Assembly (NCBI GenBank): GCA_038396605.1
Contig: CP121690.1
Location: forward strand, 2,016,500 to 2,080,499
Origin: Eubacteriales bacterium mix99
Lineage (GTDB): Bacteria > Bacillota > Clostridia > Caldicoprobacterales > DTU083
Length of the DNA stretch: 64,000 bases
Direction of reading: 5' to 3'
Positions 38,291 through 47,285 of this stretch are shown here, piece after piece. Position numbers and translations under genes: made by a program. Every line of letters begins with the position of its first letter. Positions within the stretch are counted from its first letter, which is position 1. The notes under the pieces are model-generated. The model was not told the DNA's origin. It was given only the letters and a program-made list of their open reading frames with translations, and did not search any database.

Positions 38291-38353
38291 GAAGGTGGCA
38301 TCCTGCTAAAATATTGATCATCAACAAAAATATCAAGAAAGGGTGCCACCTTC
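38291..38353 (+). promoter_or_regulatory. Inverted repeat sequestering the transposase ribosome binding site
   Basis: GAAGGTGGCA (38291-38300) pairs exactly with TGCCACCTTC (38344-38353). The second arm sits between the ribosome binding site (GAAAGGG, 38336-38342) and the ATG at 38355. In a transcript reading in from outside, the stem would hide the start. Confidence 0.6.
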
Positions 38354-38354
38354 C

Positions 38355-39773
38355 ATGTACAGTATACAAGATTTTAACGAGTTTGCAAGAAAAACAGAAA
38401 ATAAGGTAAGAAAATTTTTAAGGGAAGGTAAGGATCTGGCGGAACTGACTCTGGGGCTGCAGGAGGATCTGTTTGAACTTGGTCGGAATATACTGGTGGA
38501 GACTCTTGAGGGGATGGATGAACAGCTTCGAAAGTCCGGGGTCAGGAAAAACAATTGGGAGATTGTCAGGAAAGATGAGACAGGGATCTTAACGACCTTT
38601 GGAACGATCAAGTATAATAGAACGTATTTTAAGCCAAAGAGTGGTGGCAAAAGGAAATATCTCGTTGATGAGCTTGTTGGTCTTAAGCCACATGACAGAG
38701 TGAGTGCAGATGTGGTGATCAATGTGGTGGAAGAGGCCATAGACAGCAGCTACAGGAAAGGTGGAGAAAGAGCCGGATATATGGATGAAATAAGCAAGCA
38801 GGCTGTTATGGATAAAATACATAACCTTGAGATCAGCGAACATGAGCATAAGGTGGACAAGAAGAGGGATGTCAGGATACTGTATGTTGAAGCAGATGAA
38901 GATCATGTTTCCCTGCAGGGAGAAGACGATAAAAGCAAGATAGCTATGCCCAGGCTGGTTTATGTTCATGAAGGCGTAGATCCCGAAAAAAGCAGCCAAA
39001 CGAGGACCAGACTTAAAAACGTTAAATATTTTGGCGGCATGTATGATGAGAGTGAGGATCTGTGGCTGGAGGTCATAGAATATATAGACAAGCAGTACAA
39101 CATGGATTTCATTGAAACCATATACCTTTCCGGGGATGGGGCATCATGGATTAAGGCCGGGCTTGACTGGATTCCCAAAAGCAAGTTTGTGCTGGACAAT
39201 TTTCATCTTAAGAAATATATGATAACTGCGACTGCACACTTAAACGATGGAGACATCTATCAGGAGTTGAAGGATGCATTGGATTGGCCGGACAAGGACA
39301 TGGTCAAGGATGTTTTCAAGAAGATCCTCAAACGAACGGTTTCCAAAACGAAGAGGAAGGCAGTTAAGGATGCCAGACGGTACATATTGAATAACTGGCA
39401 TGGAATAGAGATAAAGGCTGATAAGGGCCATGAACTGATAGGATGCAGTGCCGAAGGTCATATAAGCCATGTGTTTTCAAGCAGGCTAAGCAGCAGGCCT
39501 AAGGGATGGTCTGAAAAAGGTGTTGCCAGGATGTCCAAACTTATCGTATATAAGAAAAATGGCGGCAGGATCTATGACCTGGTTATGGCACAGAAGCTTA
39601 AGGAGAAGGAGAACAGGAAACATGAATTGCAGGATGAATTAATCAAGGAAGTAAGGAAATCATCAGAAAGCAGATATGCTGGTTCATGGAGTAGCAGCCC
39701 AACTGTAATTACCATGGGGAAAAAGACAGGGCTGTTTAATGAGATGAGGAGTATGGCCGGAATACGCTATTAG
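38355..39773 (+). CDS. ISLre2-family transposase
   Basis: This 472-residue protein matches the ISLre2 (UPF0236) transposase family. The N-terminal third is helical and contains GTIKYNRTYFKPK (the family's zinc-less beta region). The catalytic core includes YVEADEDHVSLQ (first acidic residue), the strand LSGDGASWIKAGLDWIP with the second Asp, DNFHLKKY, and a C-terminal helical region ending FNEMRSMAGIRY. All expected parts are present with no frameshift. The start is taken at ATG 38355; a GTG at 38343 abuts the ribosome binding site. Codon use is more A-rich than in neighbouring genes, which fits recent arrival. Confidence 0.93.
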   Translation: MYSIQDFNEFARKTENKVRKFLREGKDLAELTLGLQEDLFELGRNILVETLEGMDEQLRKSGVRKNNWEIVRKDETGILTTFGTIKYNRTYFKPKSGGKRKYLVDELVGLKPHDRVSADVVINVVEEAIDSSYRKGGERAGYMDEISKQAVMDKIHNLEISEHEHKVDKKRDVRILYVEADEDHVSLQGEDDKSKIAMPRLVYVHEGVDPEKSSQTRTRLKNVKYFGGMYDESEDLWLEVIEYIDKQYNMDFIETIYLSGDGASWIKAGLDWIPKSKFVLDNFHLKKYMITATAHLNDGDIYQELKDALDWPDKDMVKDVFKKILKRTVSKTKRKAVKDARRYILNNWHGIEIKADKGHELIGCSAEGHISHVFSSRLSSRPKGWSEKGVARMSKLIVYKKNGGRIYDLVMAQKLKEKENRKHELQDELIKEVRKSSESRYAGSWSSSPTVITMGKKTGLFNEMRSMAGIRY

Positions 39774-41099: not shown

Positions 41100-41128
41100 T
41101 TGACAGGGCAGAATTCTTTTGGTATATT
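41100..41128 (+). promoter_or_regulatory. Promoter of the first purine riboswitch
   Basis: TTGACA (41100-41105) and TATATT (41123-41128) are 17 bases apart, 14 bases before the aptamer. Confidence 0.75.
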
Positions 41129-41142
41129 GAATATGACAAGGA

Positions 41143-41215
41143 TATACTCATATAATCCCGATAATTGGTTTGGGAGTTTCTACTGGGCGGCCGGAACCGC
41201 CTGACTATGAGTGGA
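41143..41215 (+). ncRNA. Guanine-type purine riboswitch aptamer without expression platform
   Basis: The P1 arms ACTCATA and TATGAGT close a three-way junction. J2/3 contains the conserved GTTTCTAC, and P3 is GGGCGG/CCGCC-like. J3/1 reads CTATGAG with C at the base that pairs with the ligand, so guanine or hypoxanthine rather than adenine is expected. The aptamer is intact, but the sequence turns directly into the truncated purD with no terminator or antiterminator. Confidence 0.9.
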
Positions 41216-41827
41216 TATCGCTGGTTTTCTCCCAGCCCGTACTATACGCCGGATGTGGCATCCTGGGTGGAACATTCGATGATCCGGCTGACGGTGGAGG
41301 CAATGAACCGGGAAGGCAGAACCTTTCGTGGGGTGCTTTATTTTGGGCTGATGCTGACTCCCGACGGGCCAAGGGTATTGGAGTACAATGCCAGATTCGG
41401 GGATCCGGAGGCCCAGGTGGTGCTGCCGAGGCTGAAGTCCGACCTGCTGGAGATCATGGAGGCTATAACGGAGAAACGTCTGGACAAGATTTCCATAGAG
41501 TGGGAAAAAGAGGCTGCGGTTTGTGTCGTGGCAGCATCCGGCGGATATCCGGGAAGATATAAGAAAGGTCTGCCGATCCATGGATTGGAACAGGCGGAAA
41601 AGGAGCACGATATCCTGCTGTTCCATGCAGGCACAAAGCGGACCGAAGCGGGTCTGGTGACAGATGGAGGCAGGGTGCTGGGAGTAACGGCCCTGGGGGA
41701 TACAGCGGAAGACGCTGCGGAGAAGGCATACCGGCAGATCGGCGCCATCTGCTTCCAGGATATGCAGTATCGAAAGGATATCGGAACGAAAAAAACAGAA
41801 AGGGAAAAGGAATGGTTGAAAAAATGA
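41216..41827 (+). pseudogene. purD: 5'-truncated purD (phosphoribosylamine-glycine ligase)
   Basis: Homology to PurD starts abruptly at FSPSPYYTPDV (about 41224) and continues to the normal C-terminus: RTFRGVLYFGLMLTPDGPRVLEYNARFGDPEAQVVLPRL, the ATP-grasp C-terminal half with the Glu/Asn Mg2+ ligands, and the C-domain. About 200 of 420 residues remain; the N-domain and the GGMG loop are missing. Reading upstream, the frame runs into the riboswitch, with only a TTG (41165) and an ATG (41207) inside the aptamer and no ribosome binding site. The gene is very likely inactive. The junction looks like a deletion joining a pur-operon riboswitch to its last gene. Confidence 0.85.
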
Positions 41828-41875: not shown

Positions 41876-41931
41876 AAGTATGTGGTATGACAAATGAAAA
41901 TTTATGGATGGAGGAATCTATCCATAGGATA

Positions 41932-42004
41932 CCCACTCATATTAGCCTGCAAATCTGGTGCAGGAGTTTCTACGTGGCGACCGAATCGCCTACGCTATGA
42001 GTGT
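41932..42004 (+). ncRNA. Guanine-type purine riboswitch of the permease gene
   Basis: P1 is CACTCATA (41934-41941) with TATGAGTG (41996-42003). P2 is CCTGCA/TGCAGG, J2/3 is GTTTCTAC, and P3 is GTGGCGA/TCGCCTAC-like. J3/1 has CTATGAG with the guanine-specific C. The expression platform follows: a 9-bp terminator stem with T run at 42051-42084, so ligand binding should switch transcription off. Confidence 0.95.
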
Positions 42005-42050
42005 TCAGGGGCCTGGAGTGCAGCAGCCAACAGCTGTTGCACAGACAGGG

Positions 42051-42183: not shown

Positions 42184-43593
42184 ATGGAGAAGTTTTTCAA
42201 GCTCGAAGAGAATGGTACCAATGCCCGAACCGAAACTCTTGCTGGTTTCACCACTTTCTTTGCCATGGCTTATATCATCATGGTTAATCCCAGTATGCTG
42301 AGTCAGACGGGAATGCCGTGGGGCGCAGTATTTCTTTCCACCATCATCGCTTCCGTTATCGGAACGCTGGTCATGGGTCTGGTGGCCAATGTACCTTATG
42401 CTCTGGCTCCCGGCATGGGACTGAATGCGTTTTTTGTCTTTACGGTTGTTTTCAATCTGGGATTCAAATGGCAGGAAGCACTGGCCATGGTTTTTGTCTG
42501 CGGTCTGGTGAATATTTTCATTACCGTGACAAAGATCCGGAAGCTTATCATTAAGGCAATCCCGGAAAGCCTTCAGACTGCCATCGGCGGAGGCATCGGT
42601 ATTTTCATTGCCTATATCGGCATCAAAAATGCAGGATTTCTGACGTTCACTTCGGATCCCGGGACCTACAATCTGCTGGACAGCGGCACCGTTGTTGCCA
42701 GTTCTGCTGCGGTACCGGCGTTGTCTCCCATGAACACACCTGCCATACTGCTTGCGATATTTGGATTGGTCCTGATGACGGTTCTTCTTGTAAAAAAGGT
42801 AAAAGGAGCTATCATTATTGGCATTGTTGTAACCGCCCTGCTCGGCATTCCCTGCGGCGTAACCAAAATGGGTGAGACCGTAAGCTTTGTCGAAGCATGG
42901 AATCAGCTCCCCCGGACGTTCGGAGCAGCGTTCGGCAATCCCGGCCTCCTGTCCCTCTTCAAGGATCCCGCCAGGATTCCGCTTGTATTGATCACGATCT
43001 TTTCCTTCAGTCTGTCCGATACGTTTGATACCATTGGTACCTTCATCGGAACCGGACGCAAAACCGGAATCTTTTCCATGGAAGATGAAAAGGCATTGGA
43101 GTCCGGCTCCGGATTCAAATCCAAGATGGACAAGGCTTTGTTTGCAGATTCCATTGCCACTTCCATTGGTGCTGTGCTCGGCACATCCAATACCACAACC
43201 TATGTGGAAAGTGCGGCAGGGATCGGAGCAGGCGGCCGTACCGGTCTGACCAGCGTAGTGGTGGCCATTCTGTTTGCAGTCAGTGCATTCCTTGCCCCTG
43301 TACTCAGTGCGGTTCCCAATGCGGCTACCGCTCCCGCCCTTATTATCGTCGGCATTATGATGCTGTCTGCATTCAAGGACATCAAATGGGATGACATTGA
43401 TGTGGCAATCCCGGCTTTCTTTGCCGGTATCTTCATGGCGATCTGCTACAGCATCTCCTATGGAATTGCCACTGGCTTCATCTTCTACTGTGTTGTGAAA
43501 ATTGTCCGGGGAGAAGCCAAAGGGATCAATCCGATTCTGTGGATTGCAACCATCCTGTTTATCCTGAACTTTGTTCTTCTGGCCATTATCTAG
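42184..43593 (+). CDS. pbuG: Hypoxanthine/guanine permease, AzgA/PbuG subfamily (NCS2)
   Basis: This 469-residue membrane protein has about 12-14 helices. It belongs to the AzgA/PbuG branch of NCS2 transporters: NARTETLAGFTTFFAMAYIIMVNP at the start, NVPYALAPGMGLNAFF, SLSDTFDTIGTFIGTG and SIGAVLGTSNTTTYVESAAGI. The last carries the conserved TTYVES. These carriers import hypoxanthine, guanine or adenine with protons. The guanine riboswitch upstream supports a hypoxanthine/guanine substrate. ATG follows GGGGGAATTAGG. With purD truncated next door, salvage by this protein may be essential. Confidence 0.95.
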   Translation: MEKFFKLEENGTNARTETLAGFTTFFAMAYIIMVNPSMLSQTGMPWGAVFLSTIIASVIGTLVMGLVANVPYALAPGMGLNAFFVFTVVFNLGFKWQEALAMVFVCGLVNIFITVTKIRKLIIKAIPESLQTAIGGGIGIFIAYIGIKNAGFLTFTSDPGTYNLLDSGTVVASSAAVPALSPMNTPAILLAIFGLVLMTVLLVKKVKGAIIIGIVVTALLGIPCGVTKMGETVSFVEAWNQLPRTFGAAFGNPGLLSLFKDPARIPLVLITIFSFSLSDTFDTIGTFIGTGRKTGIFSMEDEKALESGSGFKSKMDKALFADSIATSIGAVLGTSNTTTYVESAAGIGAGGRTGLTSVVVAILFAVSAFLAPVLSAVPNAATAPALIIVGIMMLSAFKDIKWDDIDVAIPAFFAGIFMAICYSISYGIATGFIFYCVVKIVRGEAKGINPILWIATILFILNFVLLAII

Positions 43594-43687
43594 AAACAAT
43601 AAATTCGGATCCTGCGGCGAAACAGCCGCATTGATCGTAAGTCCATAGCAGCAAATAAAAATACGATTCATGAAAGCAGGAGAGTAT

Positions 43688-43725
43688 AAAAAAGCTTTTC
43701 CCGGATCTCCGGGAAAAGCTTTTTT
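43688..43725. terminator. Bidirectional terminator between pbuG and the dapB operon
   Basis: A 17-bp perfect stem, AAAAAAGCTTTTCCCGG (43688-43704) with its complement (43709-43725), with A and T flanks suited to both strands. Confidence 0.92.
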
Positions 43726-43783
43726 ACCATTCTTATTCACTTTTTTATATTCATTTCCTCACTGCACGCCAGGAGAGTCGTCC

Positions 43784-45004
43784 TTACAGGCGGAACGCCT
43801 CCATAATGGATTCCACAGCACGTTTTTCATCTTCGCGGGGAAGGACAATAAAAATTTTTGTTTCTGAAGTGCTGATCATTTTCATCCGGATGTCCTGCTC
43901 TGCCATGATTTCAAAGATTCTTGAGGCGACTCCGGACTGTCTTTCCATACCGGAACCCTCTATGGTCAGACGGGCAATATCGGAGCAGGCATCGGCTTTT
44001 ACAGAGGAGTCCCGGACTTTGCATTCCTCCAGAATCTGCATGGCATGATTCAGCTCCTGCTGCGGCAGGGTGAAGGAAAGGCGGATACCACCGTTTTCTG
44101 GTACCGCTTGACTGATCAGATTGATGACAATGTTGTGCTGTGCCAGCTTCCCGAAAATCTTTGCTGCAAATGTCGGATCATCCGAGCCGCAGTTTACAGT
44201 GACCATGGCTTCTTCATTGTTTGTATGGATATTCGTAATGGCATTCTGATCCAGCATGATATCCTTCATGTTGTACAGGCCTGTCTTTTTGCCTGCCAGA
44301 TATTGAACAGTTGTCAAAGCCCCAAGTGCGAAAATCTGCTTTGACTGCGCCTGGTGCGTGATTTCCAGTGTTTCATCCGGCCCGGCGAAAAGGACCGAAT
44401 GTTCCCCGGCAATGGTGCCGCCCCGTATGGAATGGATCCCGATTTCATCTATGGAACGCTTGTCGGATCTGGAATGTCTCCCGTAAACATAGTGCCTGGA
44501 GTTTAAAAACGCCCTGTTTGCCGCTTCTGCCAGGGAGTAGGCTGTGCCGCTGGGAGAGTCCACTTTCTGATTGTGATGTTTCTCGATGATTTCAATATCA
44601 AAGCGTTCTCCCAGAACCGAAGCGGCCTGGTTTACCAGCTCATACATCAGATTCACACCCATGGCCATGTTGGCCGCCTGGAAAATTGCAATTTCCTTCG
44701 ATGCCTGTCGGATTTGCTCCATATTCCGCTCAGACAGTCCCGTGGTGGCAATGACCAGGGGCGTTTTGCTTTTCCCTGCATATTCCAGCAGATCGGGCAG
44801 GGCGGAAGGAGAGGAAAAGTCCAGAATCACGTCTCCCTGTTCCGTCATGTCTGAAAATCTTTCATACACGGGGAAAGGATTGGATTTATTTCCGGAATAC
44901 TTATCAATTCCGGCAACGATCCGGATGTCCGGATTCGTATTTGCTGCACCGACAACGGTTTGACCCATTTTTCCGTTGCAGCCGTGCAGAATCAATTTTA
45001 TCAT
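43784..45004 (-). CDS. dapB: Dihydrodipicolinate reductase fused to two C-terminal ACT domains
   Basis: This 406-residue protein makes tetrahydrodipicolinate for lysine and DAP. Residues 1-250 are a normal DapB: HGCNGKMGQTV (nucleotide loop), IATTGL, FQAANMAMGVNL, and the catalytic/substrate motif EKHHNQKVDSPSGTA (His143, His144, Lys147). Residues 260-406 are extra and match the tandem ACT domains of aspartokinase: PTFAAKIFGKLAQHNIVINLI with RLSFTLPQQEL, then SGVASRIFEIMAEQDIRMKMISTSETKIFIV. DapB is usually about 250 residues. The fusion could make DapB lysine-regulated. It is the third gene of asd-dapA-dapB, with ATG after CGGAGG. Confidence 0.92.
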   Translation of the reverse strand: MIKLILHGCNGKMGQTVVGAANTNPDIRIVAGIDKYSGNKSNPFPVYERFSDMTEQGDVILDFSSPSALPDLLEYAGKSKTPLVIATTGLSERNMEQIRQASKEIAIFQAANMAMGVNLMYELVNQAASVLGERFDIEIIEKHHNQKVDSPSGTAYSLAEAANRAFLNSRHYVYGRHSRSDKRSIDEIGIHSIRGGTIAGEHSVLFAGPDETLEITHQAQSKQIFALGALTTVQYLAGKKTGLYNMKDIMLDQNAITNIHTNNEEAMVTVNCGSDDPTFAAKIFGKLAQHNIVINLISQAVPENGGIRLSFTLPQQELNHAMQILEECKVRDSSVKADACSDIARLTIEGSGMERQSGVASRIFEIMAEQDIRMKMISTSETKIFIVLPREDEKRAVESIMEAFRL

Positions 45005-45025: not shown

Positions 45026-45904
45026 TTACATTAATCCATATTCGTGCATTTGCTGTTTCAGCAGGGACAGATGATTTTCCGCCATATCGGCAAGAGGCAG
45101 GCGAAGCGGACCCATATCGAATCCCATGAGATTTATGGCCGTTTTGACCGGAATGGGATTGACTTCACAGAACAAGGCGTCGATGAGGGGAAGAAGCTTC
45201 AGCTGCAGATCCAGGCTCTCCTTCACATGGCCGGCCAGAAACTCCGCCACCATCTGATGGGTATCCCGGGGAGCAACATTGGCCACGACGGAGACAACTC
45301 CTTTCCCACCGGCAGCCAGCAGCGGAACCACCATATTGTCGTTTCCTGAATAGATGTCAATCGATTCGCCGCAGAGGCGACGCATCTCCAATACCTGGGC
45401 AATGTCCCCGCTGGCTTCCTTGATGCCAATGATGTGCGGCAGCCTGGAAAGCTCCTTCAATGCTGTGGGGGATACGTTCATACCGGTCCGGCCGGGCACA
45501 TTGTAGATGATAATGGGAATATGGACGGCATCATTGATTTCCCGGTAATGGGCAATGAGCCCTCTTGCGTTGGTTTTGTTATAGTAGGGGGTAACTGCCA
45601 GGACGGCATCCGCTCCCAGCTTTTCCGCTTCCATGGAGGCTCGGACGACTTCGGCAGTATGATTTCCTCCGACTCCGGCCAGCACCGGCAGCCGTTTTGC
45701 GGTTTTCTCCACGGTATATCGGATGACGGAGGCTTTTTCCTCCCTGGACATGGTAGCCGGCTCTCCGGTTGTACCACAGACCAGCAAAGCATCTGTCCCC
45801 TGTTCCATCTGGAATGCAATGGTTTTGCCCAGAGCTTCCAGGTTGATTCCTTCCTGGCTGAACGGTGTCGCCATGGCGACACAGGAACCGGTAAAAAGAC
45901 TCAT
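45026..45904 (-). CDS. dapA: 4-Hydroxy-tetrahydrodipicolinate synthase
   Basis: This 292-residue enzyme condenses pyruvate with aspartate semialdehyde. It is the normal DapA length. Motifs: VCGTTGEPATMSREEK, the tyrosine in IIIYNVPGRTGMN, the Schiff-base lysine in IIGIKEASGDIAQV, and SGNDNMVVPLL. It stands between asd and dapB, 69 bases after asd and 21 bases before dapB. The context supports a genuine lysine-pathway enzyme, unlike the longer DapA paralogue at 8038. Confidence 0.96.
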   Translation of the reverse strand: MSLFTGSCVAMATPFSQEGINLEALGKTIAFQMEQGTDALLVCGTTGEPATMSREEKASVIRYTVEKTAKRLPVLAGVGGNHTAEVVRASMEAEKLGADAVLAVTPYYNKTNARGLIAHYREINDAVHIPIIIYNVPGRTGMNVSPTALKELSRLPHIIGIKEASGDIAQVLEMRRLCGESIDIYSGNDNMVVPLLAAGGKGVVSVVANVAPRDTHQMVAEFLAGHVKESLDLQLKLLPLIDALFCEVNPIPVKTAINLMGFDMGPLRLPLADMAENHLSLLKQQMHEYGLM

Positions 45905-45973: not shown

Positions 45974-47011
45974 TCAGTCTGTCTGCCAACTGTTTTCCTG
46001 TCTTAATTTTCCCTTTTGCCAGAAATCAATCAGCCGCTGTGCGATTTGTACGGTGTTGGTCGCCGCTCCCTTGCGGATATTGTCTGCCACGACCCAGAGG
46101 TTCACGCCACTGTTCACGCTTTCATCCCGGCGGATTCTCCCGACAAAGATCTCATCCCGGTCCGCGGTGTCAATTGGCATGGGGTAGCGGCATTTGGCCG
46201 GATCGTCCACCACCACAATGCCTTCTGCATGGGAAAGGGCCTGTTTCAGATCATCGAGTTCAAATTCCTTTTCAAACTCCACATTGATGGATTCACTGTG
46301 GCAGTAGAATACAGGTACCCGTACGGCGGTGGCTGTGATGGCAAGTGAGGAATCCCCCAGTATTTTTCTTGTCTCGTTTACCAACTTCATTTCTTCCCTG
46401 GTATAGCCATTCTCCAGAAAATCATCGATGTGAGGCAGACAGTTTCCGAAAATGGGATGCGGGAATTTCTTCGGCGCTTCTCCGTGCATGCCCCGTTCCA
46501 AATCGGAATAACCCTGCATTCCTGCTCCGGAGACCGCCTGATAGGTGGAATAGATGATCCTTTTGATCTGATAGCGGTCGTGCAGGGGCTTCAGCGGAAC
46601 GACCGCCTGAATGGTGGAGCAGTTGGGATTGGAAAGGATGCCGTGATGCCGGAGGATATCCTGAGGATTCACCTCGGGTACCACCAGGGGAACCTTCGGA
46701 TCCATTCTCCAGGCACTGCTGTTGTCAATGACGACAATTCCCTTCTCTGCAGCGATGGGAGCAAATTTCCTGCTGACTTCCGCTCCGGCGGAAAAGAGTG
46801 CAATGTCAATGTTCTTTCCGTCAAAACATGTCTCGGTCAGCTCTTCCACGGTAAACTCCCGCCCCATGAACGGACATTTTTTCCCTGCGGAACGGGCGGA
46901 CGCAAACAGGTAATAGTTTTCGACCGGCAGTTTTCTTTCCTGAAGCACCTGTAGAAATTTGCGTCCCACCATTCCGGTGGCTCCTACAATGGCGATGTTA
47001 TATTTTTTCAA
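45974..47011 (-). CDS. asd: Aspartate-semialdehyde dehydrogenase
   Basis: This 345-residue enzyme reduces aspartyl phosphate to the semialdehyde, the branch point to lysine, threonine and methionine. NADP-binding GATGMVGRKFLQVL opens the protein. The catalytic cysteine is in ILSNPNCSTIQAVV (about residue 126), and SGAGMQGYSDLE and the histidine region VPVFYCHSESINVEF follow. The start is TTG 47011 after GGGGGGAA; a longer frame begins in the leader. It heads the asd-dapA-dapB operon, behind a promoter, a structured leader and an internal terminator. Confidence 0.96.
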   Translation of the reverse strand: MKKYNIAIVGATGMVGRKFLQVLQERKLPVENYYLFASARSAGKKCPFMGREFTVEELTETCFDGKNIDIALFSAGAEVSRKFAPIAAEKGIVVIDNSSAWRMDPKVPLVVPEVNPQDILRHHGILSNPNCSTIQAVVPLKPLHDRYQIKRIIYSTYQAVSGAGMQGYSDLERGMHGEAPKKFPHPIFGNCLPHIDDFLENGYTREEMKLVNETRKILGDSSLAITATAVRVPVFYCHSESINVEFEKEFELDDLKQALSHAEGIVVVDDPAKCRYPMPIDTADRDEIFVGRIRRDESVNSGVNLWVVADNIRKGAATNTVQIAQRLIDFWQKGKLRQENSWQTD

Positions 47012-47132
47012 TGTCGTTTCCCCCCGTTTTCTGCCTTCCTGCATATTGAAACAGGAAGATACTTCCTTATCAAGCTATGCAGAAAGCAAGACAAAAAGTT
47101 CCGGATGCCCGTATCCTGTTTCCCCCGAAAAA

Positions 47133-47158
47133 CAAAAAACGGCTGATCTTATCAGCCG
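47133..47158 (-). terminator. Intrinsic terminator inside the asd leader (attenuator)
   Basis: On the minus strand CGGCTGA (47158-47152) pairs with TCAGCCG (47146-47140), followed by TTTTTTG. It lies about 90 bases past the predicted transcript start and 120 bases before asd, so transcription of the operon needs read-through. Confidence 0.75.
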
Positions 47159-47250
47159 CCTCAGACTCAAGCAGCATCACATAATATATGATATATGCCG
47201 CTTATAAAAGCAGTATGCTCCATCCACAGTCGGATGACCCGGAATCCTTT
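47159..47250 (-). promoter_or_regulatory. Structured leader of the asd-dapA-dapB operon
   Basis: On the minus strand, between transcript start and terminator, an imperfect hairpin joins GCGGCAT (47202-47196) with ATGCTGC (47177-47171), with inner ATCA/TGAT-like pairs. A GGAT/ATCC element precedes it. I do not recognise the lysine (L-box), T-box or SAM consensus. After the terminator a second two-tier hairpin, CTGCATA...TATGCAG with inner AGGAAG/CTTCCT, lies before asd (47043-47083). Confidence 0.5.
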
Positions 47251-47256
47251 TTTTTC

Positions 47257-47285
47257 ATCATAACATCACCGCTGTGGAATGTCAA
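47257..47285 (-). promoter_or_regulatory. Promoter of asd-dapA-dapB
   Basis: On the minus strand TTGACA (47285-47280) and TATGAT (47262-47257) are 17 bases apart. Confidence 0.8.

Follow-up and report, generated by a model that had tools for sequence, protein, structure and literature searches.

A dihydrodipicolinate reductase with a C-terminal aspartokinase-type pair of ACT domains in Clostridia

Composition of the DapB-ACT protein

The window, a stretch of 64,000 nucleotides of clostridial DNA, carries a dapB gene (dapB-ACT) whose product is a complete dihydrodipicolinate reductase followed by a tandem of aspartokinase-type ACT domains. Judging from sequence comparisons, we give about an even chance to the reading that this DapB may be feedback-controlled through the joined aspartokinase regulatory unit, with lysine or diaminopimelate as the likeliest signal, and regulation of DapB is most likely what the tail is used for. 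The DapB step is generally regarded as unregulated, and a feedback-controlled DapB, if real, would be an extra control point in a pathway of importance to cell walls, amino-acid production, and the design of antibacterials. A sensor domain carried on a metabolic enzyme is also found in other ACT-regulated biosynthetic enzymes, such as 3-phosphoglycerate dehydrogenase, threonine deaminase, and prephenate dehydratase; we know of no ACT domain described for DapB. The text available to us of PMC2530860, PMC10464499, PMC12925634, PMC5109050, PMC6262375, PMC11206623, PMC5584792, and PMC10383950 does not describe a DapB with ACT domains. No such description was found in the open-access literature searched, in which the architecture appears to be undescribed; subscription papers and preprints were outside the scope of the search, and a description there is possible.

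The open reading frame spans exactly 43784-45004 on the minus strand, starts with ATG, and encodes 406 amino acids. It is the third gene of asd-dapA-dapB, all three on the minus strand, with dapA (45026-45904) as its upstream neighbor and asd (45974-47044) as the first gene of the presumed operon, and it gives the sole DapB_C match in the genome. The catalytic part, residues 1-250 (44255-45004, minus strand), matches Pfam DapB_N (2-113) and DapB_C (116-250) and scores 213.6 bits with the NCBIfam dapB model TIGR00036 (cut-off 122), where residues 1-250 align with positions 1-269 of 270. It thus shares with the DapB family the whole catalytic protein, the glycine-rich cofactor motif, and HHNQKxDSPSGT. 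The motifs GxxGxMG and HHxxKxDxPSGT are presumably those for cofactor and substrate; G8, G11, G14, H143, H144, K147, D149, and P151-T154 are invariant in 55 fused sequences, M13 is kept in at least 90% of them, and the HHNQKVDSPSGT motif of the catalytic part is intact.

The remaining residues, 253-406 (43787-44248, minus strand), form the ACT pair according to Pfam, NCBIfam, and structure matches. Pfam finds ACT_9 in two stretches, ACT_7 (53.1 bits, cut-off 27), and ACT, and the best ACT-family stretches fall within residues 270-404. The best ACT_9 stretch (87.4 bits, cut-off 27) is the second ACT domain, residues 347-404 (43793-43966, minus strand), which contains the G358 loop and the STSE motif. 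The NCBIfam aspartate kinase models are confined to residues 238-406 and all stay below their cut-offs, and the amino-acid kinase catalytic domain PF00696 is absent from the protein in a Pfam search at E 1. The preliminary description, made from the window sequence, had proposed a normal DapB followed by tandem ACT domains on the aspartokinase plan, which is borne out by Pfam, NCBIfam, and the structure model. The extra C-terminal part that it reported is present, with a length of 154 residues rather than about 145, and MISTSETKIFIV (376-387), which it took for the ending of the protein, is followed by 19 further residues.

An AlphaFold model built from the 55 fused sequences has a mean pLDDT of 90.3 and a pTM of 0.72, with the arrangement between the domains uncertain. 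Its residues 1-252 match the DapB structure 5tem_A (Z 32.0, rmsd 1.8, 252 residues), and a Z score of 32 is reached on the Vibrio and E. coli enzymes. Residues 252-406 match the beta subunit of Corynebacterium glutamicum aspartokinase, 2dtj_B (Z 21.4, rmsd 1.5, 155 residues), followed by 3s1t_B (Z 21.2) and 2dt9_A (Z 20.8). Searched against solved-structure sequences at E 0.01, residues 250-406 match 16, all of them aspartokinases, whereas the DapB chains among the 50 structure matches listed have 215-278 residues and none has an ACT pair. Compared with the C. glutamicum LysC beta subunit (PDB 2dtj/3aaw), the tail has the same two ACT domains in the same length and order, with 30% identity and an rmsd of 1.5 Å over 155 residues; it differs in lacking a kinase domain, in being joined to DapB, and in several changed effector-site positions.

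The dN/dS ratio against the nearest relative is 0.25 for the ACT part and 0.15 for the DapB part. This comparison indicates purifying selection on the ACT part, and a pseudogene-like tail was rejected on the ratio of 0.25.

Distribution and probable origin of the ACT pair

DapB_C was matched in 28 of 30 genomes of the window's order, and 23 of these 28 encode a long reading frame in which the same position matches an aspartokinase-type ACT; an ordinary short DapB is present in five (G003, G005, G007, G008, and G029). A frame error or a chimeric assembly was rejected, since the same unbroken frame recurs in these 23 genomes. In a class sample of 245 genomes, in which all counts are minima, the unbroken fusion was found in at least 16, and in other genomes dapB ends in a stop codon and is shortly followed by a separate ORF for an ACT pair. 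A scan of one genome per species with a pair of peptide patterns, one built around EGxGM[EA] and the other around TSETKI, gave 70 loci (L053-L122). The fusion is present in 59 of them, two of which are cut by a contig edge; the others are nine free ACT pairs right after dapB, one contig-edge ACT fragment, and one 44-residue edge match. Because these loci were picked by pattern, the conservation of motifs is given here, wherever this selection matters, from the 18 rows found by profile. Upstream asd and dapA on the same strand accompany 36 of the 59 fused loci of the pattern scan, many of the others being short contigs or non-Clostridia. The holders include Caldicoprobacter (with the thermophile C. 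algeriensis, L060), Mahella (Mahella sp., L062), Christensenella, Spirochaetales, and Desulfobulbaceae; the nearest is the MAG UBA4874 (L053), and G010 is a genome of the window's genus. Phage relatives were rejected: 27 records match, none over 80% of the query, and among the 10 matches listed the alignment ends at residue 250 to 269. The preliminary description had named a common and already characterized architecture as a point against it; the architecture is common in its order, and a characterization was not found.

With DapB-linked ACT pairs as queries, the top matches of the class survey were fused pairs, free pairs beside dapB (frames of about 155-210 amino acids), and aspartokinase C-termini on the dapB contig. 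From the class lists we chose 20 operon-aspartokinase, 20 free-pair, and 20 candidate without-pair loci. In all 20 operon-aspartokinase loci the aspartokinase lies downstream of dapB on the same strand, either next to it or one gene further, and is a complete kinase, unlike dapB-ACT. The gene between them, present in several loci, is DapH by Pfam in L183, the only one tested, and those in L184, L185, L187, L191, and L194 resemble it by eye. In L189 the frames of dapB and the aspartokinase are 12 bases apart, stop codon included.

In the ACT tree of 142 rows (the contig-edge fragment L086 was left out), all 66 fused rows fall into a single clade (97% bootstrap, 91% SH-aLRT). Adding 24 of the 25 free pairs gives the next larger group (99/99), and a wider one (95/94), which also takes in the 20 operon aspartokinases and the remaining free pair, is separate from the LysC-type and other aspartokinases. 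It is therefore well supported that the tail is most closely related to ACT pairs with genes beside dapB, whether free or within the aspartokinase that follows asd-dapA-dapB, in many cases after an intervening DapH gene. The claim that the tail has the aspartokinase ACT-pair fold and groups with aspartokinases beside dapB in other Clostridia thus holds in sequence, model, and tree. The order among the operon aspartokinases is supported only at 33/47, so the tree does not give the direction of change, and there are long branches among the fused rows. The simplest reading, not proven, is a path from the operon aspartokinase through a free ACT pair to the fusion. If true, this would be a traceable transplant of regulation from an enzyme to its operon neighbor, and the whole aspartokinase, the free sensor, and the fused sensor would be stage-like states in living relatives. 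In a further arrangement (L198:1745-3458), dapB and a complete aspartokinase are followed by a separate free ACT pair, which may represent an intermediate or a duplication.

The DapB tree (120 rows, a quick tree) shows the five short DapBs of the order nested among the fused ones, with at least three changes forced, and we conclude from this nesting that the ACT pair was lost repeatedly in the order. Repeated loss of the pair with DapB kept fits an add-on role. A tblastn search with the window's ACT part found no ACT remnants after the short DapBs at six loci of the order, giving only a 9-residue chance match. The fused DapBs are not one clade in this tree (seven changes, four forced, with the nesting of the short DapBs as part of the cause); 11 Spirochaetota rows form a group that lies among unfused rows with a fork support of 88. 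The fused DapB may have been transferred, or gained and lost repeatedly. In four Spirochaetota loci (L085, L088, L092, and L120), two dapA-dapB pairs adjoin each other in divergent orientation; one includes a short, distant DapB and the other DapB-ACT.

Effector site and proposed regulation

If the pair acts as a sensor, it would bind a pathway end product (lysine or its precursor meso-diaminopimelate), pair with the ACT unit of a neighboring subunit, and lower the activity of DapB through the attached nucleotide-binding domain. We take D274, G277, and N374 to line the effector site of C. glutamicum aspartokinase. In the part of a review available to us, Q298, A279, and S381 are named as sites that affect feedback in this enzyme, and Q298G, I375P, and A279T are among the changes that relieve it. 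The LysC-type aspartokinases of the order keep D274, G277, A279, Q298, and N374 in 13 of 13 rows. In the DapB-linked ACT family, the positions of D274, G277, A279, and N374 are not conserved and Q298, S381, and E382 are mostly kept, Q298 in 20/20 operon aspartokinases, 16/25 free pairs, and 46/66 fusions. The window protein retains D275, A280, and Q299 and has T278 in place of G277 and R373 in place of N374; the lysine/threonine effector site of the C. glutamicum type (D274, G277, A279, Q298, and N374) is thus not present in full. Because several classical effector residues are changed, lysine and diaminopimelate are no more than the likeliest candidate ligands. The preliminary description had predicted lysine feedback on the reductase as control at an unusual step. 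Control at an unusual step is favored by the DapA marker described below; lysine itself is a candidate ligand only, since several of the effector positions have changed.

A DapB that is allosteric toward another effector, such as threonine, S-adenosylmethionine, dipicolinate, or a pathway intermediate, with a site changed before the fusion, is a less likely reading, to which we give somewhat better than one chance in five. Conservation of the positions D274, G277, A279, and N374 is already lacking in the operon aspartokinases and free pairs, and the fused family has gained acids beside the second ACT loop. Glutamate stands at the V350 position (window residue 349) in all 18 profile-found fusions, an acid at this position occurs in 0 of 33 aspartokinases (20 operon and 13 LysC-type), and the free pairs have Y, A, S, or F there in 21 of 25 rows. 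A further glutamate at position 355 (window 354), adjoining the loop, is found in 14 of the 18 fusions, and lysine at 375 in 27 of 66 fused rows. Such an acid may serve the amino group of a ligand or a contact with DapB. The acid at 349, the purifying selection on the ACT part, and the retained glycine and S381 of the second ACT also count in favor of the main feedback reading. In addition, the riboswitches before related operons and the DapA marker indicate lysine as the signal that is watched.

We consider it rather improbable that the ACT pair is a structural module that alters the oligomerization or stability of DapB and is no longer a sensor. ACT pairs dimerize readily, the first-ACT loop residues of the fused family vary widely, and the pair has been lost several times while DapB was kept. 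In addition, two genomes (G021 and G023, loci L034 and L036) have a fused DapB on a long branch whose second ACT lacks the TTSE motif, so that the sensor may be decaying in their family, which also tells against the feedback reading. Against this reading, the second-ACT glycine (G359, in 64/66 fused rows) and the TSE motif (S381 in 66/66) are strongly conserved, although 48 of the 66 rows were chosen by patterns that contain part of these motifs.

Feedback on DapB would be placed in a lineage whose DapA bears a marker of lysine insensitivity. According to the part of PMC5109050 available to us, which cites another study, His or Glu at position 56 of DapA marks lysine-inhibited enzymes and Lys or Arg insensitive ones. 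The DapA of the window has Lys at position 56 (E. coli numbering). After identical DapA rows were collapsed, fused loci have Lys or Arg in 46 of 50 readable rows (three Gln, one Cys, and no His; one further row was unreadable), whereas His is found in all 40 free-pair rows and in 18 of 19 rows from outside the order counted as without pair. Two loci picked as without-pair candidates (L216 and L217) turned out to be free-pair loci, and L229 was counted as without pair despite a free pair 0.7 kb downstream; 16 fused and two free-pair loci have no adjacent upstream dapA in the sequence examined. All five genomes of the order that lost the ACT pair have Lys or Arg, and the 20 operon-aspartokinase loci have four Lys, five Leu, four Gln, three His, one Ile, and three unreadable rows. 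On the DapA tree, residue 56 needs just four changes and there are four independent pairs, of which about 0.8 is informative, giving no significance; a statistical test of fusion against residue 56 was rejected, as about one independent pair is informative. The association appears as a consistent picture resting on few independent events rather than a test. We hold only tentatively, at somewhat less than an even chance, the wider reading that these proteins form a widespread and hitherto undescribed class of allosteric DapBs, in which feedback would have shifted from DapA and aspartokinase to DapB, the sensor coming from an operon aspartokinase stripped of its kinase and the effector site being re-tuned.

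The genome has a single full aspartokinase (415 amino acids, NF006068 above its cut-off), and the preliminary description had suggested a check of its ACT domains. The enzyme retains its own ACT region, with one Pfam ACT match above cut-off (347-410) and the first ACT unmatched, so the fused pair is not obviously a relocated necessity. A role of the pair as a substitute for an ACT missing from this enzyme was rejected, because the enzyme keeps its ACT region and, among the 30 genomes of the order, fused and unfused ones alike have aspartokinases. A LysC-type aspartokinase is absent from the window genome and G010 and present in most other genomes of the family. The same enzyme bears on a reading to which we give about one chance in ten, in which the pair acts in trans as a beta-like subunit that docks on aspartokinase, so that step one of the pathway would be coupled to step four. 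The aspartokinase matches of the tail start at C. glutamicum position 251-252, the joined segment thus being the extent of the natural beta subunit, and other Clostridia have free pairs next to dapB. However, the sole full aspartokinase has its own ACT region and lies outside the DapB-linked ACT group, and 29 of 30 genomes of the order have an aspartokinase above cut-off.

The aspartokinase gene adjoins those for both subunits of dipicolinate synthase, of which subunit B exceeds its cut-offs and subunit A scores 254 bits where the cut-off is 261. In spore-forming bacteria DapB and dipicolinate synthase compete for the product of DapA, and braking DapB, as the feedback reading proposes, would spare the dipicolinate branch. 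The fused Spirochaetota and Desulfobacterota are, to our knowledge, not known as spore formers, so this branch is not a general reason for the fusion.

Operon leader and neighboring features

Upstream of asd, a promoter-like site, TTGACA-17-TATGAT (47257-47285, minus strand), precedes a structured leader RNA (47130-47252, minus strand) that ends in a terminator-like hairpin (47162-47136). The leader, like the promoter-like site and the hairpin, is conserved in the sister genome (L053), and its 123 bases fold better than every one of 200 shuffled sequences (z -3.95). The scan totals are about those expected by chance (promoters, 4 against 4.1; terminators, 5 against 4.1). The proposed leader terminator before the operon is thus favored by its conservation and folding but not by the scan total. 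The leader is single copy in the genome, and among 13 family genomes it is nearly full only in G010, the others matching over 17-33 bases. Rfam gave no match to the leader at gathering score and only four at E 10, each well short of its gathering score; on this basis, the presence of a known riboswitch in the leader was rejected.

Most of the related operons tested have a lysine riboswitch at the position that the leader occupies: it precedes asd in nine of 11 (seven fused and two free-pair) and is absent before asd in the window, L053, and L056. Because of these nine relatives, we regard the operon as lysine responsive. Lysine-riboswitch-controlled asd-dapA-dapB operons were known before, for example in Mahella australiensis (PMC5584792), whose operon, as given in the part of that paper available to us, has the same gene order as that of the window, which lacks the riboswitch; the phrase ACT domain is not used in that part. 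A single lysine riboswitch is present in the window genome, before genes that by eye resemble those for ABC-type amino-acid uptake.

Downstream, a near-palindromic terminator-like hairpin (43687-43726, listed on the plus strand by the scan) lies between dapB-ACT and a convergent permease gene. Two purine riboswitches are found on the plus strand. The first (41128-41227) overlaps the start of a purD-like ORF (41165-41827) that looks fragment-like by eye, and the second (41917-42017) precedes the xanthine/uracil-type permease gene (42184-43593, Pfam). Farther away, the ORF at 38343-39773 (plus strand, 476 amino acids) is, by eye, presumably a UPF0236-type transposase.
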